This document shows, piece by piece, positions 7,720 to 45,775 of a stretch of 64,000 bases of DNA. Origin of the DNA: Methylomagnum ishizawai (GTDB taxonomy: Bacteria; Pseudomonadota; Gammaproteobacteria; Methylococcales; Methylococcaceae); NCBI RefSeq assembly GCF_900155475.1, contig NZ_FXAM01000001.1, forward strand, positions 3,048,881 through 3,112,880, written 5' to 3'. Position numbers and translations under genes: made by a program. Under the pieces are notes generated by a model, which was not told the DNA's origin, made no database searches, and worked only from the letters and a program-made list of their open reading frames with translations. Position 1 is the first letter of the stretch; every line of letters starts with the position of its first letter.

Positions 7720-9300
7720 TCACCGCCGCGCCACGCCCTTCAAATGATCCGCCAACCGTAGCGCCAGCGCGATAATGGTCAAGGTGGGATTGGCGAAACC
7801 ACTGGTCGGAAACACCGAGGAACCCGCGATATAAATATTATCCAAACCATGGATACGGCAGTTTTCATCCACCACGCCCCAGCGCGGATTCACATTCATG
7901 CGCGTGGTGCCCATATGATGGCCGGCACCGCTCGCGCCATAGAGTATCTCCGGTTCGTTCTCGGGCATTTCCACCGCCATCCGGCCAAACCCGGAACGCT
8001 CCACTTCGGCGGCGATCAAGCGGTGGGCCACGCCGATTCCCTGTTTATCCAAGGCCGAAATCCGCCAATCGATGGTGGCTTTGGGCAAATCCAAGGCATC
8101 CCGTTGTTCCGAAAGCCGTATCCGGCTATCCGGGTTGGGCACCTGCTCCACGAAATTGGATAAGCGATAGATCACCGGATATTTTGTCGGTGCATGGGCC
8201 TGCACGAATTGCTTGAATATTTTCCGGTATTTCTGGAAGGCCATCAGCGCCACGGTATCGAGGGCGTCGATATCCATGATGTTCTTGCGGGCGTCATGGG
8301 CCAATTCAACCAGCTTATCGAACGCCGACGGGGTATTGATGGTGATTTCCGCGCGGAAATCGGGAATCCGATATTGCCTCACCACGGCTTCGGGCAAGGC
8401 CAAATGGCATTGCACCCAACCGGCGCGGGATTGCTGCGGCGCTCCGTAGATACGCAAGGGCTGATGCCCGTTATGGGGCAATATCTTCCCGCTGCGATAC
8501 CAGATATGCTCCATGAAAAACCGTCCGACCAAATCATGATCGTTCCCCAACCCATTCCCCTGGATTTGATTCGACAGCAGCAATAGCCGGGCATTTTCCA
8601 CGCCCCCCGCCGCCAGCACATAATGCTTGGCCTTCACCGCGAAACGCCTGCCGGTCAAGGTCCGCACCGCGACATCCCGGACATGGGGAGTATCCTTATC
8701 GCGATTGATGGCGGCCACATTGGCGTAAATATAAGCGGTAATATTGGCGGCATCCGCGATTTGCCCGCGATAATGGCTACCGAAGCGCCGGGCATCGAAC
8801 TTGGTCTGGCCCATATAGCGCGACATGACGGTTTCGACCTTATCCGTCGAAAACGGGAACAAACCCAAACCCAACTCCGCAGCCACCTGGGCCGGATCGC
8901 AGTCGTTATCGCCCAAGTCCAAGTGTTGCTGGGCACGGGCATAATAAGGCCGCAGGGTCTCGATCCCGAACGGCCAGCCACTATAGGGAATCCAGGACAC
9001 GCGCTCGAAATTGAGCGCCCGCAACGGCACGCAATGCCCACCCCAAAGATTGGTCGCCCCACCGAAATACCGGGGCCGCAGGAATCTCAAGCCATTATAT
9101 TTACGCCCCACATTATGGATGGCCTGCAACCGCTGGGTACGCCTGTCCACTTGTAGACCGCCGCTTTCCAAGAGACAGATATCCATGCCACTATGGGCGA
9201 ATTCCAGGGCGATCATAATTCCAGCCGCCCCCGCCCCGATAATACAGATATCCGTTTCCACCAGCCTATCGTCATCCATATCCCTGGCATCGATCATCAT
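7720..9300 (-). CDS. GMC-family FAD-dependent oxidoreductase
   Basis: 526 residues. The FAD Rossmann motif GAGAAG (22-27) and ALLESGG-like segment are at the N-terminus, and GATNLWGGHC follows near 80. The C-terminal GMC signature includes GHHMGTTRM and VFPTSGFANPTLTIIALALR. Members oxidise alcohols, sugars or sterols and pass electrons to FAD, then to O2, quinone or a cytochrome. The substrate cannot be told here, and no cytochrome or small subunit lies next to it. There is no obvious signal peptide. An alternative start is the internal Met at residue 8. Confidence 0.85.
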   Translation of the reverse strand: MMIDARDMDDDRLVETDICIIGAGAAGIMIALEFAHSGMDICLLESGGLQVDRRTQRLQAIHNVGRKYNGLRFLRPRYFGGATNLWGGHCVPLRALNFERVSWIPYSGWPFGIETLRPYYARAQQHLDLGDNDCDPAQVAAELGLGLFPFSTDKVETVMSRYMGQTKFDARRFGSHYRGQIADAANITAYIYANVAAINRDKDTPHVRDVAVRTLTGRRFAVKAKHYVLAAGGVENARLLLLSNQIQGNGLGNDHDLVGRFFMEHIWYRSGKILPHNGHQPLRIYGAPQQSRAGWVQCHLALPEAVVRQYRIPDFRAEITINTPSAFDKLVELAHDARKNIMDIDALDTVALMAFQKYRKIFKQFVQAHAPTKYPVIYRLSNFVEQVPNPDSRIRLSEQRDALDLPKATIDWRISALDKQGIGVAHRLIAAEVERSGFGRMAVEMPENEPEILYGASGAGHHMGTTRMNVNPRWGVVDENCRIHGLDNIYIAGSSVFPTSGFANPTLTIIALALRLADHLKGVARR

Positions 9301-9836
9301 GGGTGTTATTCTGCTCGTTTGGATGTGTTATCGACTATTTCCGGTGAACACGCGCCGCATGGACCCGGAATCCCGCGCCATGTTATCGCAGCCTCCGCAT
9401 CGCGCGTCGATAGGAAATATCACTGACTTTGGCGGCCTATCCGCCTTCTTTACCGGGAAAACATCCCTCCGCAGGTCCGGCGTCCGCCCCGGTAAGGGAT
9501 CAAGGCCGCGAGGCCACATCGCCGGACTCCATGCCAGGCCGGAATCGTGGCATCTTTGTCTGTAAGCCGACACACCATCACGCTTCAACAGCATCCACCG
9601 TAAAGTCGAAAACGCTTGATCTATCAATGCCCCACCCCGTCAACGGCATGGATGGCACCGAATGTGCTTGAACCTCGGCAACAATCCCACCGATATCGCT
9701 TGGAAAGCCACCCGCGCTGGCCACCCCGCCCCGACAACCCCTCGTTGACCCCAGGATAGACCCGCTGGATTCACCCAGCTTCCCGCGCTTGCCAAAAGCC
9801 GGGCTGGATTAAACCCATAAGACATGAGTAAGAGCT
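9301..9836 (+). other. Intergenic region of 536 bp without recognisable gene
   Basis: This gap separates the divergent GMC oxidoreductase and protoglobin genes, so both promoters must lie in it. Short open frames exist on both strands, but none has a family motif, a good ribosome site or codon use like its neighbours. A small perfect palindrome, TTGAT-CT-ATCAA, lies at 9616-9627. Nothing else is evident. Confidence 0.5.
9616..9627. promoter_or_regulatory. Inverted repeat with FNR-like half-sites
   Basis: TTGAT and ATCAA are the half-sites of CRP/FNR-type regulators, but they are 2 bases apart here instead of the usual 4, so this is not a standard FNR box. It lies about 210 bases before the protoglobin start. 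It could be chance or a site for another dimeric regulator. Confidence 0.2.
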
Positions 9837-10397
9837 ATGCAAAATTTGAATTATTCCGAACTGACCCAATACGCGAAAGCGCTGGCGAATTTCACCCCGG
9901 AACAGGAGCGCGTGGTCATGGAAGCGGGTGCCTTGCTGAAACCCCATTTGGTCGAAGTCACCGAATCCTTCTACGACAAACTGCTGGCCATCCCGGAAAC
10001 CCGTAGATTCCTGCAAGGGCGTACCGAACGCCTCAAAAACACCCATTTGTCCTGGCTGGATAAAATATTTACCGGACCTTATGACAATGAATATACCGCC
10101 TATATGTACATGGTGGGCGTCATCCATGTCCGGGTGGATTTGCCGGTGGAATTCATGGCGGCGGGGATGACTTTGATCGCGGACGCCATCTCCACCAAGC
10201 TGAACGCCCTCTACGGCGGCGACCATCGCCAATCCCGCGACACCATGGCGGCGATCAATGGGGTCTTGGGGTATTCCCTCATCGTGATGCAAAAATCCTA
10301 TCAATCCTCGATGGAGGAACAATTGCAGAAGTTCTTGAAAATCACCGGCATCACCCGTGCGCTGTATCAAAACATGGCCCTGGCTTATAAAGGTTGA
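9837..10397 (+). CDS. Single-domain protoglobin (heme gas-binding protein)
   Basis: 186 residues made up almost entirely of the protoglobin / globin-coupled-sensor fold. Family marks include FYDKLLAIPETRRFL, the HLSWLDKIFTGPYDNEY stretch and YMVGVIHVRVDLPVEF, whose His is the likely proximal heme ligand. The end of the protein is a helix with no GGDEF, kinase or methyl-accepting domain attached. Such proteins bind O2, NO or CO. Here it could scavenge or detoxify NO, store O2, or sense gas through a separate partner. It has its own long upstream region and appears to be transcribed alone. Confidence 0.88.
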   Translation: MQNLNYSELTQYAKALANFTPEQERVVMEAGALLKPHLVEVTESFYDKLLAIPETRRFLQGRTERLKNTHLSWLDKIFTGPYDNEYTAYMYMVGVIHVRVDLPVEFMAAGMTLIADAISTKLNALYGGDHRQSRDTMAAINGVLGYSLIVMQKSYQSSMEEQLQKFLKITGITRALYQNMALAYKG

Positions 10398-14761: not shown

Positions 14762-15670
14762 ATGTCAATCCCCGACTTCCAATCCATCATGTTGCCCCTT
14801 CTAAAACTCGCGGAAGACGGGCAAGAACACGCCAACAAAGAAGCCAAGGAAAAACTGGCGCTGCATTTTTCCCTATCGGAAGCAGAACGGGAAGAGCTCT
14901 TACCCAGCGGGCGACAAACCACTTTTGATAACCGGGTAGCCTGGGCGCGTTCTTACTTGAAGATGGCTTTATTATTAGAAGTGCCGCGCCGTGGCTTTTT
15001 CCGTATCACACAACGTGGCAAAAGCGTCATCCAAAAAAATCCAGAGAAAATAAATATAAAATTCCTTGAGCAGTTCCCGGAATTCAGCGCTTTTAAAACA
15101 CCCGACAAGCCGAATATTAAAGAAGCACTCATTGAACAACCATCAGAAACACAAACCCCCGAAGAAACCTTGGATGCCGCGCATATCAAGCTCAAACAAA
15201 CCCTTGCCGAGGAATTGATCCAAACCATCAAAGCATGTAGTCCGGCATTCTTTGAAAAACTGGTGGTCGATCTGCTTGTCAGGATGGGCTATGGCGGTAC
15301 CCGCAAAGATGCCGGGAAAGCGGTGGGTAAATCCGGTGACGGTGGGATTGATGGAATTATCAAGGAAGACCGTTTAGGGCTAGATGCGATATATATTCAA
15401 GCCAAAAAATGGGAAGGCACTGTAGGACGCCCCGAAATTCAAAAGTTTGCGGGCGCGTTGATGGGACATGGCGCTCATAAAGGGGTTTTCATTACAACAT
15501 CCAATTTTAGTAAGGAAGCTATCGACTTCGCTTCCAGCGTCAATTTGAAAATCGTCCTGATCGATGGACAAACCCTAGCCACACTCATGATCGACCACAA
15601 TGTCGGAGTATCGCCAATCGTCTCTTATGAGATCAAAAAGCTCGATCTCGATTATTTCATCGAAGCCTAA
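14762..15670 (+). CDS. mrr: Mrr-type restriction endonuclease
   Basis: 302 residues. An N-terminal winged-helix Mrr_N domain (about 1-90) is followed by a Glu/Pro/Thr linker. The C-terminal Mrr_cat PD-(D/E)xK nuclease (about 150-290) shows GDGGIDGII and then YIQAKKW, the Asp and Gln-x-Lys catalytic residues. Mrr enzymes cut DNA with foreign methylation. The gene is clearly poorer in G+C than its neighbours and uses more AAA and TTT codons, which suggests recent acquisition. No methyltransferase is adjacent, as expected for a type IV enzyme. The ATG at 14762 opens the recognised domain directly. Confidence 0.88.
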   Translation: MSIPDFQSIMLPLLKLAEDGQEHANKEAKEKLALHFSLSEAEREELLPSGRQTTFDNRVAWARSYLKMALLLEVPRRGFFRITQRGKSVIQKNPEKINIKFLEQFPEFSAFKTPDKPNIKEALIEQPSETQTPEETLDAAHIKLKQTLAEELIQTIKACSPAFFEKLVVDLLVRMGYGGTRKDAGKAVGKSGDGGIDGIIKEDRLGLDAIYIQAKKWEGTVGRPEIQKFAGALMGHGAHKGVFITTSNFSKEAIDFASSVNLKIVLIDGQTLATLMIDHNVGVSPIVSYEIKKLDLDYFIEA

Positions 15671-15691
15671 TCCACACCGGAAATCAGCGAT

Positions 15692-18469
15692 ATGACGACC
15701 GCCCCCCACTACCTCATCGGCATCGACCTAGGCACCACCCACACCGTGGCCGCCTACGCGGAGCTGGCCCACGGCACCGCCCACAAGCTCGAACTCTTCC
15801 CCATCGAACAATCCATCAAGCCCGGCCAAGTCGCCGCCCGCCCGCTGCTGCCCTCGGCCCGCTACCACGCCGCGCCCGCCGAACTGTCGGACACCGACAC
15901 CGCCCTGCCCTGGCCCCCCACCGAACCCCCCCAAGACCACCGCCCCGTGGTCGGCGAACTGGCGCGGCTCTTGGGAGCCAAAAGCCGCGGCCGCCTCATC
16001 ATGAGCGCCAAAAGCTGGCTCTCCCACGCCGGGGCCGACCGCACCGCCGCCATCCTGCCCTGGGGCGCACCGGAAGACGTGCCCAAGATTTCCCCGGTGG
16101 ACGCCAGCGCCAGCTATCTGCGCCATGTGCGTTCGGCCTGGAACGCCCAACACCCCGAAGCCCCCTTGGAACGGCAAGACCTGGTCGTCACCGTCCCCGC
16201 CTCCTTCGACGAAGCCGCCCGCGCCCTGACCCTGGAAGCCGCCCGGCTGGCGGGACTCCCCAAACTGCGCCTGCTCGAAGAACCCCAGGCCGTCTGCTAC
16301 GACTGGCTGTGGCAACACCGCAAGACCCTGCAAAAGGAACTCGACGGCGTGCGGCTGCTGCTGGTCTGCGACGTGGGCGGCGGCACCACCGACCTGACCC
16401 TCATCAAGGTCGAACCCGGCGCGGACGAACCCAAACTGACCCGTATCGCGGTCGGCAACCATCTCATGCTAGGCGGCGACAACATCGACCTGACCCTCGC
16501 CCATCTCGCCGAACAGCGGATGCTGGGCGGCGATAAACGCCTGTCCTCCGCCGAGCTCTCGCAACTGGTGGAGCAATGCCGCCTCGCCAAGGAACGCCTC
16601 CTGGCCGACGTCGCCCCCGACACCGCCACCGTCACCCTGCTCGGCGCGGGTTCCCGTTTGATCGGCGCGGCGCGTTCGGTCGAACTCGACCGCGACGAAG
16701 TCCACCGCATGGTGCTGGACGGTTTTTTCCCCCGTGTGGGACTGCACGAACATCCCGACCGCAAGCGCAGCGGCGTGGTGGAATTCGGCCTGCCCTATGC
16801 TGCCGACCCCGCCATCAGCAAGCACCTCGCCGCCTTCCTCAGCCAGCACCGGACCACGGCGGCGGAAGCCCTCGGTTCCAACAGCGAAACGCCGGTGCCC
16901 GACGCCCTGTTGCTGAATGGCGGCGTGTTCCGTAGCCCGGTCATCGTGCGGCGCATCGTCGAGCAAATGGCTGAATGGGGCGGCCAAGCGCCCAAAGTCC
17001 TACGCAATGAGCGGCCCGACCAAGCCGTGGCCTATGGCGCGGTGGCTTACGGTTTAGCCCGGCGCGGCCACGCCATCCAGCGCATCGGCGGCGGCTCGGC
17101 CCGGAGCTATTTCTTGTTGGTGGATACCGGCGCGGACCAAGCCCAGCGCGGCGTGTGCATCCTGCCGCGCGGCACCGAGGAAGGCCGCGAAGTGGTGTTG
17201 GCCGAGCGCACCTTCTCGTTGCGGCTAGGCCAGCCGGTGCGGTTCCATCTGGCCTCGTCATCCGGGGATATGCGCTACCAGCCGGGCGAATTGGCCGAGA
17301 TCGACGAGGAACGCTTCCAGAACCTGCCGCCACTGGCCGTGGCCTTCGACCGCGACAGCGCCCAGGGCGGCCAGGAACAAGCCGTCCGCATCGCCGCCGC
17401 GCTGACCGAAATCGGCACCCTCGACCTGCAATGCGTGGCGGTGGACGACCCCGAAAAGCGCTGGAACATCGAATTCCAATTGCGCCGGGGCGCGGCCCAG
17501 CCAGTATTGGAAGCCCGCCGCCATCCGCGCTTGGACGAGGCTTTGGAAAAAATCCGGCTGGTGTTCGGCAAGAAGACCAAGACCGCCGATCCCAAGGCCA
17601 TCAAGGGCTTGCGCAGCGAACTGGAAAAAAGCCTGGGCGGGCGCGGCGATTGGGAGACACCTTTGCTGCGGGAATTGTTCGGTGCCCTGCTGGAAGGCTT
17701 GCCGCACCGCCGCCGCAGCGCCGACCACGAGCGGGTCTGGCTCAGCCTGGTGGGCTATTGCCTGCGGCCCGGCTTCGGCTATCCGCTGGACGATTGGCGG
17801 GTGGAACAGGTGTTCGCCGTCTACGGGCAGGGCTTGCAGTTCGTCAACGAGCCGCAGAATTGGGCCGAATGGTGGACCCTGTGGCGGCGCATCGCGGGCG
17901 GCCTGGACGCGGCGGCGCAGACTGCGGTGTTCCACGACCTGGCCGAGATCATCAACCCGGACACCGCCAAGCGCGGCAACAACGTCACCCTGGCGAAAAA
18001 GCGCGGCTACGAGGACATGGTGCGGCTGGCGGCGGTGTTGGAACGCCTGCCCGCTGCGAACAAGGCCGAACTCGGCGGCTGGCTGCTGCACCGGCTGGAA
18101 AAATCCAGCGAACCCATGGAAAGCTGGTGGGCCTTGGGCCGCATCGGAGCCCGCGTGCCTTTCCACGGCAGCGCCCACAACGTGGTGCCGGTGGCGACGG
18201 TGGAGCGTTGGCTGGAAACGGTCATGGGGCGGGATTTCAGGAAGGAGCCGCATCCCGGCTTCGCCGCCGCGCTCTTGGGCCGGATGAGCGGCGACCGCGA
18301 GCGCGATCTGGAACCCGCCACCCGGCACCGGCTGATCGACAAACTCCGCGCCGCCAAGGCACCGGAATCCTGGATTTCGATGGTGTCCGAGGTGAAGGAA
18401 TTGACCGAGGCCGACGAGCAGCGGATTTTCGGCGAAGCCTTGCCACCCGGTTTGAAGCTGATCGGCTAG
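15692..18469 (+). CDS. Large Hsp70-family (DnaK-like) protein
   Basis: 925 residues, longer than DnaK (about 640). The actin-like ATPase domain fills the first 420 or so residues, with phosphate 1 motif GIDLGTTHTVA (10-20), phosphate 2 motif VCDVGGGTTDLTLI and the adenosine motif LLNGGVFRSP. The rest does not look like the DnaK peptide-binding domain. The last 300 residues are helical and resemble the C-terminal domain (DUF3731-like) of bacterial Hsp70 variants of unknown role. No DnaJ or GrpE gene is adjacent. It follows mrr by 21 bases but differs strongly in base composition, so a functional link is doubtful. Confidence 0.85.
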   Translation: MTTAPHYLIGIDLGTTHTVAAYAELAHGTAHKLELFPIEQSIKPGQVAARPLLPSARYHAAPAELSDTDTALPWPPTEPPQDHRPVVGELARLLGAKSRGRLIMSAKSWLSHAGADRTAAILPWGAPEDVPKISPVDASASYLRHVRSAWNAQHPEAPLERQDLVVTVPASFDEAARALTLEAARLAGLPKLRLLEEPQAVCYDWLWQHRKTLQKELDGVRLLLVCDVGGGTTDLTLIKVEPGADEPKLTRIAVGNHLMLGGDNIDLTLAHLAEQRMLGGDKRLSSAELSQLVEQCRLAKERLLADVAPDTATVTLLGAGSRLIGAARSVELDRDEVHRMVLDGFFPRVGLHEHPDRKRSGVVEFGLPYAADPAISKHLAAFLSQHRTTAAEALGSNSETPVPDALLLNGGVFRSPVIVRRIVEQMAEWGGQAPKVLRNERPDQAVAYGAVAYGLARRGHAIQRIGGGSARSYFLLVDTGADQAQRGVCILPRGTEEGREVVLAERTFSLRLGQPVRFHLASSSGDMRYQPGELAEIDEERFQNLPPLAVAFDRDSAQGGQEQAVRIAAALTEIGTLDLQCVAVDDPEKRWNIEFQLRRGAAQPVLEARRHPRLDEALEKIRLVFGKKTKTADPKAIKGLRSELEKSLGGRGDWETPLLRELFGALLEGLPHRRRSADHERVWLSLVGYCLRPGFGYPLDDWRVEQVFAVYGQGLQFVNEPQNWAEWWTLWRRIAGGLDAAAQTAVFHDLAEIINPDTAKRGNNVTLAKKRGYEDMVRLAAVLERLPAANKAELGGWLLHRLEKSSEPMESWWALGRIGARVPFHGSAHNVVPVATVERWLETVMGRDFRKEPHPGFAAALLGRMSGDRERDLEPATRHRLIDKLRAAKAPESWISMVSEVKELTEADEQRIFGEALPPGLKLIG

Positions 18470-30903: not shown

Positions 30904-31208
30904 CCCGCCCGCATCCGGCCTGGATGGCCACGCCCCAACCCCACCGCACACTGTCACCCGGATTGGGCCAAGCTTCCGCCCGCTATGGCCGATCTCATCG
31001 CGCCCTATCGATACCCCGCCCTCTTGCTTGACAGCCCCGCCAATTTAATTTGACGGCTATACTTGGAGTGACCCGCCGCGCTCGCCGCCTATCTGATTTT
31101 GCAACGCATCAGTGTCGGATCAATACCGACACATCCCCACCCAACCGAGCGGTCATCGGCTCCGGTCACGCCCTTGGAATCCATCCAACCTCAAGGGGGA
31201 AACAAGCC
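30904..31208 (+). other. Intergenic region of 305 bp upstream of the orphan membrane protein
   Basis: No gene is visible. A TTGACA (31028-31033) and a TATACT (31058-31063) are present, but they are 24 bases apart, too far for a standard sigma-70 promoter. The final stretch becomes AT-richer, as does the following gene. AAGGGGGA at 31193-31200 is the ribosome site of the next gene. Confidence 0.45.
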
Positions 31209-34200
31209 ATGGCCGAAAACAACCAAAACGATGGCAAATTCGGGTTTCCATTCGCCAATTTGGGCAGCGTATTAGCGCTGGTGCTAGCGGGCACGTTATT
31301 CATCGGACAAACCCCCTATAACCAAAGCCGACCCAACGGACCCGATATTCAATCCAAGCCTTCGGAGCCACTGCACGAAGTCGAGGCCCGGCTTTGGCAA
31401 GACCCGTTCGAGGCGGCAGAGGCGCATGAGGTGCGGGATAAGGATAAGGATAAAGACGGACATGACGACCACTTTGGCCATGACCTAAAGGCCCTTACCC
31501 AGGAAATCCAAAATAAACTCGATGCCAGAGAACAACCACAGGGGGAGCAAAAAGTTATCGCGGTGATGCTGCCGGATGGGCACTATTTCGAGGAAGCAGA
31601 GACCCGGCGGCGCTTGCGCTATGCGGTTTTATCTGGTTTCGACGCGGCGAAGCGCTATCAATCCGACGAACCCGAGCATATCCATTACGTTTATTTTTCC
31701 CTAGGCAAGGATAAAGAATCCAAAGCCATCTACGAGTGGATGACTTATAAGCCGGTCGGGGAGCATGAAAACCGCCCTCCGGCAAAAAACGAAGAGCTTA
31801 AAGAAATATCCAAACCAGATCACCCATCAATTTTAGTTCTATGGCTCAACCAAAAAGACTTCAAAATCACGCCCTATCAAAATTTGATAAGTCTTTTTGA
31901 GAAAATTGTTCAATCAGATTTATTCACGCTTAATATCGCGGTACTCGGCCCCAAAGATTCAGAGGGCCTACAGGATTTAACCAATGAAGTATTAACTAGC
32001 GCTAACCTTGATAGAAAAAGCTCTTTCGATAATTTATCATGCAAAAAACCCAACCACAATAATCGCCTCGCATTCAGCTTTTATTCCCCCGCAGCAACCG
32101 CGCAAGAAAACATTTTGCTAAAAGCCATCGGCGATAATCACAACCTATCTGAATACTTTGAAAATTGCGAAGACAAAATACGCTTTATCAGAACCACCCC
32201 GACAGACGAGGCGTTGGGCAGAACACTCAAAATGGAGCTAGCTTTACGCGGCGTACAATCAAACCCGAGAAATCATATAGTATTACTATCGGAATGGGAT
32301 ACTTTGTATTCTTGGCATTTACCACGGACATTCGCGCAACTACTCAATAATAAAGACTCCGGCTGCACGAAAGCTTTAAATTTAGAGCAAATGGCCGGGA
32401 GCGATTGCATCCATTTATTCAGATACTTACGCGGCCTGGACGGCGAAAAACGTCAAGATAAAAGCGACGGCAAACCCGATAAAGCCAAAGACAAGAAAAA
32501 CAGCGGCACAACCAGCGCGGAAAGCCGGGAAAACATGGAGGATGCCGACGGGAACAGCCAATTCGACTATGTGCGACGACTCGCCCAAAAAATTAAAATC
32601 TTGGATGGGCACTGGCGTTCGGAAGGCAAAGGCTCGTTGCAAGCGGTAGGAATCCTCGGCAGCGATGTCTATGACAAGCTGTTGATTTTGGAAGCCATGC
32701 ATGACCTTTTCCCCGATGTGTTGTTCTTCACCAACGACATGGATGCCCGCTATCTCCATCCCAGCCAAAATCAATGGGCACGGAACCTGATCGTGGTCTC
32801 CGGGTTTGGATTGGAACTAGAGGCTGGCTTACAGAAGGATATACCGCCGTTTCGGAGCAGTTTGCAGACGGCATATTTCTTGGCGACACAAGCCGCCTTG
32901 AACGATCCAGGAATTTCCCAGAAAGCAATTTCAAAGGCGCTAAGCGACAAAGGGGCGAGGATATTCGAAATCGGTAGAACCATGGAATTCCATCTGAATG
33001 AACCGCAAAAAATCGGGGAGCCCTGTCAAGACATAAAAAACTGCGATAACATCCATGCCACACCTAAAAACCTCGGGCTACATCTTGCTTGGCAAACTTG
33101 GCTGTTAGAATTTTTAAGCTTTACAATACCACTGACTTTTCTTTATACGCTCCCCACCGCTAGAAATTTCATGGGGCAGTTAATTGGCGTTCTGTTTTCA
33201 ATACACATTGCGATCTACATTTTGCTTTGTCTACTTCTAGCCGAATCAATCCCACTGATCGCCATCGTGTTAACAGCTAGCCTAGCGATCTCGATACTCT
33301 CATCCATCAACAGAAATACACCACCAAAGACCAACAAACGCTTTACACATATCACAACATTTATATTTAGTTATTTGATAATATATTCAGCCATCATATT
33401 AGTCTTTGTCCAAGCCGGAAGGATCACAGAAGAACCCTTCGCATTTACTGAAGGCGTCAGCATGTGGCCTACAGAGTTACTACGTCTTATCGCATGGATT
33501 TTGGCAAGTTATTCCATTATCGATTCATGCCAATTTTCGGAAAGAATGAAAACATGGATAATCAACAAGGCGGGCAAAAGAAATTATGAACACCATCTGA
33601 ACCCAGACGATCAAGGAGCGTGCTCCGCAAACAATCCCAAAAAAGATCCGCTAGTCAATTGGCTACAGTGGAATACCTCGAAGTGCCGCCTATCCCGCGC
33701 ATTTTTATTTGCCGCTTTATTTTATTTTGTCTGCTATCTAATCATCCAAATTCACGAACCCAATATTCCATATCGTGGCGAAAACATAAAGACCATCGAC
33801 CAAACGCTACTGCTAGGATTATTGGTACCCAGCTTCAGTCTATTATTATTCCTCGTGACCGACGCCGCGCAGACCGCGACCCAGTTGATAGAAGCCATCG
33901 CCAAATCGGAACACCTGACACAATGGCCACCCTTCGCTTGGAAAGCCTTCGTGGAGGAAATCAAAATCCCCCAGGACAACTTGCACGAATGGATCAGCGT
34001 CCATTTCGTCGGGAAACTGACCGAGGAAATCAATACAATCATGGCCTACCCATTTTTGGTCTTGGTCCTCATGGTATTGGCCCGGTCCAGTTATTTCGAC
34101 CACTGGGTCACGCCCTTGGGTTTGAAATTGGTCATCGGCGCGAGCGCCGCCTATCTACTGTATTGCGATTATCGACTCAAAAAAGCCGCGGACGCGGCCT

Positions 34201-34439
34201 GCAAGAACGCCCTGAAATGCTTGAACCGGCGGATCATCCAATATAAGGGCGAGAAAAACGACCCCCTGGTCGGCCAGCTCGAATACCTCGTCCCCCTGAT
34301 CCAGCAATGCAACCAAGGCGCGTTCCGTCCTTTCACCCAAAGGCCGATCTTCCTGAGCAGCCTGCCGCTCCTAGCCGCCATGGCGGTGGACTTCACCGAC
34401 AACCTGCCGCTGTTGATCAAGCTGTTCGGCTTCGGTTAA
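31209..34439 (+). CDS. Orphan 1076-residue protein: one N-terminal helix, large soluble domain, C-terminal membrane domain
   Basis: I do not recognise the family. One helix at about 14-33 is followed by a soluble part of roughly 580 residues, then seven or eight membrane helices (about 634-987) and a charged tail. The soluble part contains alternating strand-helix segments (VIAVMLPDGHYF, NIAVLGPKDSEG, NHIVLLSEWDTLY, AVGILGSDVYDK, NLIVVSGFGLEL). They remind me of the two-lobed periplasmic binding fold; this is inference only. A Lys/Asp-rich insert lies at about 414-447. G+C falls strongly between 31.8 and 33.8 kb, suggesting foreign origin. The ATG at 31209 has a good ribosome site. It may sense a ligand outside the membrane. 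Confidence 0.7.
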   Translation: MAENNQNDGKFGFPFANLGSVLALVLAGTLFIGQTPYNQSRPNGPDIQSKPSEPLHEVEARLWQDPFEAAEAHEVRDKDKDKDGHDDHFGHDLKALTQEIQNKLDAREQPQGEQKVIAVMLPDGHYFEEAETRRRLRYAVLSGFDAAKRYQSDEPEHIHYVYFSLGKDKESKAIYEWMTYKPVGEHENRPPAKNEELKEISKPDHPSILVLWLNQKDFKITPYQNLISLFEKIVQSDLFTLNIAVLGPKDSEGLQDLTNEVLTSANLDRKSSFDNLSCKKPNHNNRLAFSFYSPAATAQENILLKAIGDNHNLSEYFENCEDKIRFIRTTPTDEALGRTLKMELALRGVQSNPRNHIVLLSEWDTLYSWHLPRTFAQLLNNKDSGCTKALNLEQMAGSDCIHLFRYLRGLDGEKRQDKSDGKPDKAKDKKNSGTTSAESRENMEDADGNSQFDYVRRLAQKIKILDGHWRSEGKGSLQAVGILGSDVYDKLLILEAMHDLFPDVLFFTNDMDARYLHPSQNQWARNLIVVSGFGLELEAGLQKDIPPFRSSLQTAYFLATQAALNDPGISQKAISKALSDKGARIFEIGRTMEFHLNEPQKIGEPCQDIKNCDNIHATPKNLGLHLAWQTWLLEFLSFTIPLTFLYTLPTARNFMGQLIGVLFSIHIAIYILLCLLLAESIPLIAIVLTASLAISILSSINRNTPPKTNKRFTHITTFIFSYLIIYSAIILVFVQAGRITEEPFAFTEGVSMWPTELLRLIAWILASYSIIDSCQFSERMKTWIINKAGKRNYEHHLNPDDQGACSANNPKKDPLVNWLQWNTSKCRLSRAFLFAALFYFVCYLIIQIHEPNIPYRGENIKTIDQTLLLGLLVPSFSLLLFLVTDAAQTATQLIEAIAKSEHLTQWPPFAWKAFVEEIKIPQDNLHEWISVHFVGKLTEEINTIMAYPFLVLVLMVLARSSYFDHWVTPLGLKLVIGASAAYLLYCDYRLKKAADAACKNALKCLNRRIIQYKGEKNDPLVGQLEYLVPLIQQCNQGAFRPFTQRPIFLSSLPLLAAMAVDFTDNLPLLIKLFGFG

Positions 34440-42063: not shown

Positions 42064-44097
42064 TCAGCGCAGCTTGAAAATCGCGATTTCCTTGCGTAGT
42101 TCGCCTATCGCGCCTTCCAAGCGCTGGGTGGCGGCATTGGTTTCCTCCAAGGCCTGGGCTGAAATCCGGGCGCTCTCGGTCAAGGACACCATGGCGTCGC
42201 GGATTTGCCGGGCACCCGCCGATTGCGAGCGCATCCCCTCGTGGACCGCCTCGAACCTGGGCATCAAAGCCTGCACTTCCTGGATGATTTGCGAGAAGCG
42301 CTGGCCGATGCGGCGGGTCTCGGCCACGCTGGTTTGCACCTGTTCGTTGAACTTGTCCATCTCCATCACCCCACTGCCCACGGCGTCGTGCATCTCCCGC
42401 ACCATATGCTCGATGTCCAGGGTGGCGACGGCGGTTTGATCGGCGAGGCGGCGGATTTCCCGCGCCAACACCGCGAAACCCAGGCCGTATTCGCCCGCCT
42501 TCTCGGCTTCGATGGAGGCGTTCAAGGACAAGAGGTTGGTCTGGTCGGCGATCTTGGTGATGGTGGTGGTGATGCTGCCAATGGAATTGGCCTTGTCGTT
42601 GATGACGCCGAACCGCCCAGCTATCGACTGAGTGGCACCGGCCAGATGGTGCATGGCCTGTTCCATATCGCCCAGCGCGGATTGCCCGGAATCCGCCAAA
42701 TCCCGCGCATGACCCGCCCCCTGGGTCACACCGGCCATGGTGTTGACCAGTTCCTCCGAGGTGGCGGAAATTTCCTTGGCGGCGGCGGCGATTTGCAGCG
42801 TGGTCGCGCCCAGCCCGGCGGCTTCGTCGCCCTGGGCGCGGGTCATGGCGCTCAGGGTGTTGGTGGCGGACACCAGGTCGATGGTGGACTTCCTGACCTG
42901 CCCGATCAGCGAATTGAGATAGCTCACCATCCGCCCCAAGGCATTCAGCAGTTTGCCGGTTTCGTCCTCGCGCTTGGTATCCAGGGCCACGCTGAGGTCG
43001 CCTTCCGCCACCCGCTCGGCGGTCGCCACCGCCATCTGGATAGGCCATGAAATCGACCGCGCCACCCACAAGGCCAGCAACACCACCGGAATCAGGATCA
43101 AGGTCAACAAGGTGACCATGGCCTTGGTCTGTTCTTCCAGCATTTCCAAGGCTTCTTCGATATCCTGCTGGACCACGATGCCCCAGCGGAACGAGGGGAT
43201 ATAGGTCCAGGCCGCCAACACCCGCCGACCTTCGATACTGATTAATTCGCCGCTGCCCTGCCCGCCCAGCACCGCCAGTTGTATGCCCTGGCCGTTCTCC
43301 ACGCCCAATTTAACGCTCAAGCTGAAGGCGGCGTCGGGCCGGTGCCGGATCGGTGCCACGATCCGCGCCAAATCGCCCGTGTCCTCCAAAGCCCCCACCA
43401 CCACATAGCCGTTCTTGCCCAGGCCGGAATAATCGGCGAACGCCTCGAACACCTCGGTGGTATTCAGTTGCAACACCAGGAAACCGACCACCCGGCCCTC
43501 CTGGTCGTAGACCGGCGCCGCCATGAACCCCAAGGGCGTTTCTATCCCCGGATACAGCGCGAAATCGGAAATATCGGTGTCGAGCAAGGTCATGGTGCGG
43601 CGCAGCACATTCGCCATGGGCGTATCGCGCTGCGGCCCGTACAGCAGGTTGTCGCCCAGGGCGAGGTTGGTCTGGGTCTGCATCAAGACGATGCCCCTCG
43701 GGTCCACCAACACCACTTCGGAAAACCCCAGGTTGGGCGTGAAATAGTAGAGCAGCGAACGCACATCGGCCTCGGCGGCGGCCCATTCCGGCGAACCCTT
43801 GATGGCTTTGCGCATGGCCACCGTGGCGACCGCCAGCCGCTTGAGCCGTCCGAACACGCCGGCCGCGCGGGTGCGCTCGTAGGCATAATCCTCGATGCCA
43901 TCGGCCTTGGCGGTAACGATCACGCTCATTTGCTCCTGCACCTTCTCGCGCAGCAAGCGCCGGGTCAGGCGGTCGTTGATATAGACCGAGAGCAAGGCCG
44001 GCACCAGCAGCAGCAGCATGAACCAAAACACCAGCCGCCGGGCCAAGCTGAGTCCGATGCGCGAACGCAGCGCGGAGAGCCAATCAATGGGTTTCAT
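42064..44097 (-). CDS. Methyl-accepting chemotaxis protein (WspA-like receptor)
   Basis: 677 residues. There is a membrane helix at about 20-40, a large periplasmic Cache-type sensor domain (about 41-325, with [18 protein letters not shown] and [16 protein letters not shown]), a second helix near 340-360, a HAMP domain and the long cytoplasmic signalling coiled coil. Its tip reads [40 protein letters not shown], split here across contact residues for CheW and CheA. The start is the ATG at 44097, which overlaps the binding-protein gene by 14 bases. It is the last gene of a five-gene operon divergent from the CheA/CheW genes and is their likely receptor. Confidence 0.92.
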
Positions 44098-45397
44098 GGG
44101 AAGTGCGCCCTTCCGCCGTGGCGGCGTTGAACCAGTGGTTTTTCCAACCGCGGTATAAATCCTTGAGGAAATCATCCCATTGCTTGACCGAGCGGGTGCG
44201 GGGATAGGGCACCGGGCGGATGGGGTGTTGGCCGGACCAGACGATCTCGATGCGGCCATCCTCGCGGATCAGGCCCATGTTGAAGGAGCGCCAAGTGTGG
44301 CGGGTGGTGGAATCCACGGTGACGATGCCCTCGGGCGCGTTGAAGCTTTGCCCCAGCAAATCGTCGTTGACCGCGTTGACCTCGGTGGTGCCCGCCTGCG
44401 CCACCGCCCGCGCCCACAGATGCACGCTGAAATAGGCGGTTTCCATCACATCGCTCAACACCCGCTTTTCACCATAGCGCTGGCGGAAGCGCTGGACGAA
44501 CTCGGTGTTCTCCTTGCGCTCGACGCCTTGGAAATAAGGCCAGGCGGCATAATGGCCGCTGACATCGACGGCGGGCAGCTTTTGTAGCTCCGGGTCGGAA
44601 ATCGAGAACGACACCACCGGGGATTTCTGGGCCTGGAGTCCCACCTCGCGCAGGGCGCGGTAGAACGGCGCGTTGGAATCGCCGACCAGGGTACTGAAGA
44701 TCACATCGGGCCGGGCGGCCTGGATTTGGGCCACGACCGCCCCGGCATCGAGTCCGCCATAGGGCATATAGCCCTCGCCCACGACCTCCCCGCCCAAGGC
44801 TATCATCTGGTCGCGGATGATGGCGTTCACCGCATGTGGCCAGACATAGTCCGAACCCACCAGGAAGAAGCGCTTGCCGAGATGTTCGTAGGACCAGTTG
44901 ACGGCGGGCAGGATTTGCTGATTGGGTGCCGCGCCGGTGTAAATGATATTGGGCGAGATTTCCAAGCCCTCGTAGGCCATGGGATAGATCATCAGGGCGT
45001 GGTGGCGCTCGATCACCGGCCCCAGGGTCTTGCGGCAGGCCGAAGTCCAGCAGGCGATGAGGGCGGCGACCTTGTTCTGGCCGATGAGCTTTTCCGCCTG
45101 GCGGGCATAGGTGTCGGGATCGGACGCGCCGTCCATGACCACGGCCTCGACCGGCCGGCCCAACAAGCCGCCCTGGGCGTTGATCTCCTCCACCGCCAAC
45201 AATTCCGCGTCCACCATCGGCTTTTCGCTGATGGCCATGGCCCCGGTGAGCGCGTGGATGATGCCGAGCCGGATCGGTCCGTCCTCCCCGGCGGGATGCC
45301 AGAACCACCACGCCTCCGAGGCCAGCACGCCGCCGAATAGGACCAGGCCGGCCCATTTGAGGAGCGCCCCGGCCCACCCGGCGCGGCGTTCCGCCAT
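44084..45397 (-). CDS. Urea/amide-type ABC substrate-binding protein, membrane-anchored
   Basis: 437 residues. The N-terminus has a hydrophobic helix (about 12-31) without a clear cleavage site, so the protein may stay anchored with its binding domain in the periplasm. The rest is the type I binding fold of the UrtA/FmdD/AmiC group: [39 protein letters not shown], and [16 protein letters not shown]. Ligands in this group are urea, short amides or branched amino acids. No permease or ATPase genes accompany it. The neighbours are a STAS gene (TGATG overlap) and a chemoreceptor, so a sensory role is more likely than transport. Confidence 0.85.
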
Positions 45398-45720
45398 CAG
45401 AGCGCGTCCCCGACGCCGGGGAGGATTTGGAACAGGGTACTGAAGCCACTGATCTCGAACACATCGCGCAAGGTGGAATTCAAGGCGCACAGCTTCAGGG
45501 AGCCTTCGGGCGGGAGCCGCTTGGCCGCGACCAGGAACACCCGCAACCCCGCGCTGCTGATGTATACGACCTGCCCCAGATCGAAGACCAGACGCGATGC
45601 GCCGCCTTCGATCAAGTCCAGGCATTGCTGCTCCAGGTGCTTGGCGCTGGCGGCGTCGATGCGGCCTTCCAAGGCGATGACCAGGGTTTCGCCCGTTTGG
45701 GACGTGGCAATGTTCAACAT
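45397..45720 (-). CDS. STAS-domain anti-sigma factor antagonist
   Basis: 107 residues, a single STAS domain of the SpoIIAA/RsbV type. The family has a Ser phosphorylated by an RsbW-like kinase, here in VVYISSAGLRVF (S56, second of the pair). Strands TLVIALEGRIDAAS and SRLVFDLGQ are typical. In partner switching, the unphosphorylated STAS protein binds the anti-sigma ATPase. Two candidate ATPase partners exist nearby: the protein at 48358 and the C-terminal domain of the permease at 45776. The SpoIIE phosphatase at 54510 could remove the phosphate. It sits 55 bases after the permease gene. Confidence 0.88.
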   Translation of the reverse strand: MLNIATSQTGETLVIALEGRIDAASAKHLEQQCLDLIEGGASRLVFDLGQVVYISSAGLRVFLVAAKRLPPEGSLKLCALNSTLRDVFEISGFSTLFQILPGVGDAL

Positions 45721-45775
45721 GTTGTCCTCGTGATGGGTAGATGATGGAACGCGCCCGGCAGGTCCGGGACACGGC

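Follow-up and report, generated by a model that had tools for sequence, protein, structure and literature searches.

A bacterial protein family joining a predicted Venus flytrap domain to a seven-helix membrane domain that resembles insect chemoreceptors in its predicted fold

We present here a computational analysis of an AT-rich gene at positions 31209-34439 (plus strand) of a 64,000-nucleotide stretch of Methylomagnum ishizawai, a methanotroph of the Methylococcaceae (contig NZ_FXAM01000001.1, positions 3,048,881 to 3,112,880; hereafter the window). The gene encodes 1076 amino acids plus stop within an open frame spanning 31050-34439. The ATG at 31209 probably starts it, since an ortholog from the same genus (73% identical) begins at the corresponding Met. 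The gene has a GC content of 0.476, compared with 0.647 across the window outside it, and its GC content at third codon positions is 0.55, compared with 0.69-0.87 in six neighbouring genes checked. A preliminary description, made from the sequence alone, had pointed to this departure in composition and to an N-terminal anchor, a large soluble part and a C-terminal helix bundle in a protein of 1076 residues, all of which are confirmed by the composition, the reading frame and hydropathy across 72 relatives. The computations below establish the gene and its family and predict a Venus flytrap fold, a fold like that of seven-transmembrane ion channels (7TMICs), and a consistent topology. Whether the protein is a single-polypeptide bacterial ligand-gated ion channel, made of a flytrap and a 7TMIC-like domain, we regard as an evenly balanced question.

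A scan of genome contigs with the single sequence was too specific and gave no relatives. An alignment-based query, a profile built from 12 relatives, yielded 288 candidate stretches in the genome contig collection, of which 255 encode relatives, and the gene is thus not the orphan that it had been called. Eighty of the 255 were retained, and alignments used 72 (full length) or 71 (membrane domain) sequences. Pfam, NCBIfam, PADLOC and PHROGs hold no family that covers these proteins and gave nothing significant, and the sequence profiles of the PDB contain none similar to the gene product. For Peripla_BP_6 (PF13458) in particular there is no Pfam match above the gathering score, and the gene is absent from the PF13458 matches of its own genome. 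The earlier statement that no known family could be recognised therefore holds for sequence; it fails for fold, where a flytrap and an insect-receptor-like bundle were found.

The full-length protein was modelled with AlphaFold2 from the 72-sequence alignment (predicted local distance difference test [pLDDT], 80; predicted template modelling score [pTM], 0.83), and structures were compared using Foldseek and VIA-align 2 (VIA), which scores on a DALI-like scale. Residues 113-602 of the model form a two-lobed type I periplasmic-binding fold, with a VIA Z of 22.0 to LivK (3td9; 307 residues aligned; root mean square deviation [rmsd], 3.9) and of 19 to AmiC; LivJ is also among the matches. Foldseek matched the same domain to the flytrap of the metabotropic glutamate receptor mGlu5 with an E value of 2e-5. 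On these predicted structures the domain is assigned computationally to the type I periplasmic-binding (Venus flytrap) fold. Structure prediction over the soluble part, which the preliminary description had named as a check, thus bore out its guess of a binding-protein fold, in the form of one two-lobed domain and not of two copies of a lobe.

Sequence comparison of this domain with a LivJ-type profile by hhalign, run with default settings, gave a P value of 5.5e-4 across 93 columns and a probability of 30%, which is weak as a whole; the global mode gave no useful alignment. In the hhalign alignment, LivJ residues Ser79, Thr102 and Tyr150 fall on S251, T297 and Y367, which are kept in 70, 68 and 71 of the 72 relatives, and A296 (70/72) and D364 (72/72) in these motifs are also conserved. 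LivJ Tyr202 and Glu226 were placed by eye, from motif order, opposite D486 (72/72) and D510 (68/72) in a region that hhalign left unaligned. The named LivJ residues contact amino acids in the LivJ structure. Because the LivJ motif residues are kept in 68-71 of the 72 relatives, an amino-acid-like ligand is likely, as judged from sequence. The domain shares its fold (Z of 22) and its lobe-1 and hinge amino-acid-binding motifs with the LivJ/LivK-type binding proteins of Peripla_BP_6. It differs from them in being tethered to the membrane at both ends, in a large insert at approximately residues 380-450, and in having neither an ABC transporter partner nor a Pfam match.

The membrane part, in which the preliminary description recognised no fold, carries the main result. 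Residues 704-1076 were folded alone from 71 sequences (AlphaFold2; pLDDT, 87; pTM, 0.86). In Foldseek searches of the PDB, Drosophila Gr43a ranked first (E value, 7e-3; probability, 1.0), with other insect receptors following. In VIA, all of the top 20 rows were insect gustatory receptors (GRs) or odorant receptors (ORs), with Z scores of 9.2-11.9 (11.9 for Gr43a and Gr9), and 268-305 residues were aligned across the whole domain in sequence order, at an rmsd of 6.3-7.5 Å. The next row, a designed helical repeat protein, scored 8.6. Insect receptors also matched the membrane part of the full-length model. By these comparisons the modelled domain has a 7TMIC-like fold.

The 7TMIC criteria of Benton and Himmel are seven transmembrane segments (TMs), an N terminus inside the cell (N-in), inside loops longer than outside loops, a Dali Z above 10 to Orco, a long TM4-TM6 anchor, and a split TM7 (PMC9998090). 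As far as these could be tested, the predicted domain shows every one. Its seven TMs, S1 to S7b, lie at about residues 713, 751, 830, 866, 939, 971 and 1045. Median inside loops are 80, 53 and 57 residues long versus 18, 16 and 13 outside; the initial inside stretch, ahead of S1, is short at 10 residues. The VIA-align 2 Z to Orco (6c70) is marginally above the threshold at 10.7 (293 aligned; rmsd, 7.1). According to DSSP of the domain model, helices S4, S5 and S6 are 42, 33 and 44 residues long, and S7a and S7b are separate helices (316-329 and 343-369 of that model). S2 is kinked. In BmGr9, S6 has 45 residues, and S2 is kinked and extended (PMC11100771). The protein thus has in common with Gr43a, BmGr9, Orco and MhOr5 a seven-helix, N-in/C-out domain with long cytosolic S4-S6 helices, a split S7 and a kinked S2. 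Unlike insect receptors, whose ligand site lies in the membrane bundle and which lack a flytrap, it carries two additional TMs and a periplasmic domain of 490 residues ahead of the bundle, and it has neither sequence similarity to them nor their TYhhhhhQF motif. The putative pore helix, S7b, has small residues along one face (1050, 1056, 1057 and 1059). Toward the periplasmic end it has an acidic position, D1064, which is D/E in 57 of 71 sequences and mostly has Tyr next, within the conserved columns PxGGxGxxxLL(E/D)Y. Its (E/D/Q)-Y pair resembles the Q-F of GRs, which is suggestive only.

Nine hydrophobic segments are common to the relatives (TM1, TM2 and seven more), each being present in 67-72 of 72 sequences. 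The C-terminal bundle that had been described as seven or eight helices is real, and what the relatives share is a seven-helix domain preceded by TM2. Mean charges flanking the helices, before and after, are +1.7/-1.3 for S1, -1.5/+0.9 for S2, +1.9/+0.4 for S3, +0.4/+0.9 for S4, -0.1/-0.5 for S5, -1.0/+2.3 for S6 and +0.4/-0.3 for S7b. For all seven helices the charge runs in the direction expected of an N-in/C-out domain, a prediction from 72 relatives. The parity of the whole protein is consistent with this, as TM1 would be N-in, the flytrap periplasmic, TM2 a return to the cytosol, the start of S1 inside and the C terminus outside. This protein has further hydrophobic stretches at approximately residues 632-650 and 684-703; should both be membrane-spanning, the parity is preserved. 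The bundle's three conserved stretches (EGxSxWPT, PxRG and ARSxYFDxW) are all predicted to be periplasmic, a position from which they could meet the flytrap. The receptor-like architecture proposed earlier, with an extracytoplasmic ligand fold and a multi-helix membrane domain, is supported by the LivK match and this topology.

From these features we infer the ligand class, a tetramer, gating, ion flux and selectivity, as follows. TM1 would carry a periplasmic LivJ/LivK-type flytrap, and TM2 would return the chain to the cytosol ahead of the 7TMIC-like domain. An amino-acid-like ligand would close the flytrap in the periplasm, and the movement would pass via the TM1 and TM2 tethers and the three conserved periplasmic loops to the seven-helix domain. 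In a tetramer held together by the cytosolic S4-S6/S7a anchor, a pore with S7b as its lining would then open at the centre and let cations pass. A self-contained sensor and output is favoured over a partner-dependent receptor of the two-component style because no partner gene is conserved across lineages.

Several points weigh against the channel. S7b has no TYhhhhhQF motif of the GR family, the gene product has no GR pore threonine ring, and no sequence similarity of the membrane domain to 7TMICs was found. The membrane fold comes from AlphaFold2 and from Z scores below 13, a range in which the tool warns that only a shared helix arrangement is possible. The Foldseek figures are likewise modest (E value, 7e-3; TM score, 0.4; rmsd, about 6.5 Å), with no E value below 0.001. 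TM1 has a flanking charge of -0.36 before and +0.61 after, which leans slightly opposite to N-in, and the model is poor over residues 620-745, the joint between the two parts, where the local confidence of TM2 is low. To our knowledge, not all proteins of 7TMIC fold have been shown to be channels.

The same fold and topology would also suit a non-conducting receptor, in which the flytrap senses an amino-acid-like ligand in the periplasm and the signal is passed on by the cytosolic anchor helices to a partner in the cytosol. Such long helices could bind a partner, and the missing GR pore motif and the acid at D1064, which is not universal, fit a bundle of this kind. Against it, no neighbouring gene is conserved across lineages as a dedicated partner, and the small-residue face and polar or acidic end of S7b are as expected of a pore lining; we consider this explanation unlikely, though one to be taken seriously. 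Type I binding proteins usually serve transporters, and with its ligand motifs intact the flytrap might instead hand its ligand to the membrane domain for transport, as a solute-binding protein fused to a permease. The PDB search showed no resemblance of the membrane domain to ABC, TRAP or SLC permeases, no ATPase gene recurs nearby, and two membrane tethers are unusual for a delivery protein, all of which make a permease fusion improbable. The match to insect receptors might itself be convergence or a modelling coincidence, the protein being a flytrap joined to a generic bundle of eight helices, since Z scores under 13 can be non-specific for helical folds and sequence gives no signal toward 7TMICs. 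The top 20 rows all come from one family, and the model also bears independent marks outside the structure search, namely the split S7, the topology and the lengths of helices and loops; coincidence is accordingly given a very low probability. A bacterial analogue of class C G protein-coupled receptors (GPCRs; mGlu and the calcium-sensing receptor, CaSR), with a flytrap on a GPCR-type bundle, was rejected as hardly credible, for although Foldseek ranks mGlu5 and CaSR chains high against the full-length model, some aligned across both parts, those long alignments have an rmsd of about 30 Å, no GPCR appears among the first 50 Foldseek rows for the membrane domain alone, where insect GRs and ORs lead, the predicted N-in/C-out charge pattern is opposite to that of GPCRs, and an extra TM lies between flytrap and bundle. 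The coordinates of all features are given in Table 1.

Table 1. Features of the gene and its product, in window coordinates
Feature	Position	Strand	Basis
Whole gene, flytrap-7TMIC protein	31209..34439	+	Open reading frame; ortholog L042 begins at the corresponding Met; single copy in the genome
TM1, N-terminal signal-anchor, residues 14-34	31248..31310	+	Hydropathy in 71/72 relatives; model helix 16-31
Conserved RLWQDP motif between TM1 and flytrap, residues 61-66	31389..31406	+	Alignments; W63 in 72/72
Predicted type I periplasmic-binding/Venus flytrap domain, residues 113-602	31545..33014	+	AlphaFold2 model, VIA, Foldseek
Lobe-1 ligand motif LGPxxS on LivJ Ser79, residues 246-251	31944..31961	+	hhalign; S251 in 70/72
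Lobe-1 ligand motif SPAAT on LivJ TPAAT (Ala100/Thr102), residues 293-297	32085..32099	+	hhalign
Hinge/lobe-2 motif EWDTLY on LivJ DKQQY (Tyr150), residues 362-367	32292..32309	+	hhalign
Lobe-2 motif GSDxYD, D486 and D489 invariant, residues 484-489	32658..32675	+	Conservation; near LivJ Tyr202 by motif order
TM2, predicted periplasm-to-cytosol return before seven-helix domain, residues 660-680	33186..33248	+	Hydrophobic in 72/72; C-flank charge +1.6
Predicted seven-helix 7TMIC-like membrane domain, residues 704-1076	33318..34436	+	Folded alone; best Foldseek and VIA matches insect GR/OR
S1-S2 periplasmic loop motif EGxSxWPT, residues 748-755	33450..33473	+	G749, S751, W753 and P754 invariant; outside by charge
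S7a helix, part of cytosolic anchor, residues 1019-1032	34263..34304	+	DSSP of domain model
S7b helix, putative pore helix, residues 1046-1072	34344..34424	+	Domain model, conservation

Prokaryotic 7TMICs were reportedly described by Himmel, Moi and Benton in 2023. An earlier screen of 47 proteomes recorded no 7TMIC in Prokaryota (PMC9998090), and an Annual Review article describes a eukaryote-to-prokaryote transfer of 7TMICs as supported (PMC11526382). The occurrence of the fold in bacteria is thus common to the present family and to those proteins, for which transfer from eukaryotes has been proposed. No report of a flytrap-7TMIC fusion was found in the literature searched, which left the 2023 study uncovered; by that literature the fusion is the new element. 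That this is a widespread, uncharted bacterial family of flytrap-gated 7TMIC amino-acid-sensing channels, possibly related to animal chemoreceptor ancestry, is a proposal to which we give slightly less than an even chance. As in class C GPCRs and ionotropic glutamate receptors, a type I flytrap would drive a membrane signalling domain; that domain is of another fold, with a topology opposite to that of GPCRs and no ionotropic glutamate receptor pore. If the channel reading is true, one bacterial gene would combine a glutamate-receptor-type amino-acid flytrap with the pore fold of insect chemoreceptors in a ligand-gated channel, a counterpart of the glutamate-receptor design with a different pore. 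It would offer a simple bacterial model of 7TMIC gating, bear on whether the superfamily predates eukaryotes or was transferred, and imply electrical sensing of dissolved amino-acid-like compounds in methanotrophs and nitrifiers, two groups about whose sensing little is known. Family members occur in cultured strains (Nitrosospira, Nitrosomonas, Nitrospira moscoviensis and Variovorax), so the proposal is testable. Among BFVD structures none matched the membrane domain with an E value below 0.001; the first and third Foldseek rows there are uncharacterised proteins of approximately 440 amino acids from Catovirus (A0A1V0SCD1) and Edafosvirus (A0A3G4ZRZ0), with E values of 0.02-0.07, and these may themselves be 7TMIC-like.

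The relatives come from Methylococcaceae, Nitrospira, Nitrosospira, Nitrosomonas, Variovorax, Rugamonas and Pseudomonas, as well as Mariprofundus, Desulfobacterales, Nitrospinota, Planctomycetota and others. Full-length members are mostly about 980-1350 amino acids, typically about 1100, and each full-length match found to the seven-helix domain sits within such a frame of approximately 1100 amino acids. Their distribution is patchy, with members in 10 of the 369 genomes from the class, 7 of the 38 from the taxonomic family and 8 of the 398 from the phylum. No relatives were found in the viral contigs searched, and the plasmids searched gave a single weak match, 140 residues long, from Methylosinus. 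Three short frames containing only the last membrane-domain helices (S5/S6-S7; G136:C1:786511-786867, G300:C79:5867-6286 and G209:C155:1020-1339), one of which has internal stops, are probably decayed copies.

A quick tree of the relatives has many long branches and an arbitrary root. In it, Nitrosospira copies (L070, L075, L078, L083, L086 and L124) nest inside Nitrospira (L054, L057, L063, L069 and others) with an SH-aLRT support of 100, and one Nitrospira copy lies among Nitrosomonadaceae. Since Nitrosospira are ammonia oxidisers and Nitrospira are nitrite oxidisers, these placements make gene transfer within the nitrifying guild likely on the sequence evidence. The window copy groups with other Methylococcaceae (support, 100). 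The other genome of the genus carries the gene at the matching location, which means that it did not insert recently; between the two genomes its product is 73% identical, versus 96% for the neighbouring DUF2126 protein and 90% for the bestrophin-like one, and the gene is therefore old in the genus, fast evolving and still AT-rich. The lateral transfer suggested by the preliminary description is thus supported for the family, given the patchy presence and the nested Nitrosospira copies; for the window copy the support is weaker, and it does not extend to a recent arrival. A GC content below that of the surroundings is common in the family without being universal (median difference, -0.016; 17 of 71 below -0.05). 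Other GC dips, to 0.54-0.57, occur within the GC-rich window at 8001-10000 and 15001-16000.

The census of neighbours of homologues, also proposed earlier as a check, revealed lineage-specific neighbours that recur and, in the flanks of the family loci, no operon partner conserved across lineages. A defence role, also suggested earlier, found no evidence, as there was no PADLOC match (best E value against the anti-phage models, 0.042), no viral contig and no conserved defence neighbour. The transglutaminase/DUF2126 neighbour was considered as a partner, since Variovorax copies also adjoin a transglutaminase-like gene, and was rejected. Other Methylococcaceae that possess both have the DUF2126 genes and the receptor gene on different contigs, so the adjacency is treated as chance and is not ancestral to the family. 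Within Methylococcaceae, an uncharacterised gene of 304 amino acids lies downstream in L043 and L049 and one of 241-278 amino acids in L043 and L045; the distance and order of the shared small genes differ among these three loci. Tle1-like phospholipases occur near the divergent members L073, L099 and L100, with a partial one close to L044; L118 and L044 share an alpha/beta hydrolase, which adjoins the former and is near the latter, and related peptidoglycan amidases are near L081 and L035. With 0.08 Tle1-like genes expected in 1.2 Mb of flanks (baseline, about 22 in 114 genomes, assuming about 3 Mb each), envelope-attacking enzymes near divergent members exceed this rough baseline; because the data had been seen before the test was chosen, we treat this as no more than a lead. 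Elsewhere in the window, at 42064-45772 on the minus strand, a chemoreceptor gene (dCache, HAMP and MCP signal domains) adjoins a Peripla_BP_6 gene (approximately 44261-45277), and the two are a possible sensor pair.

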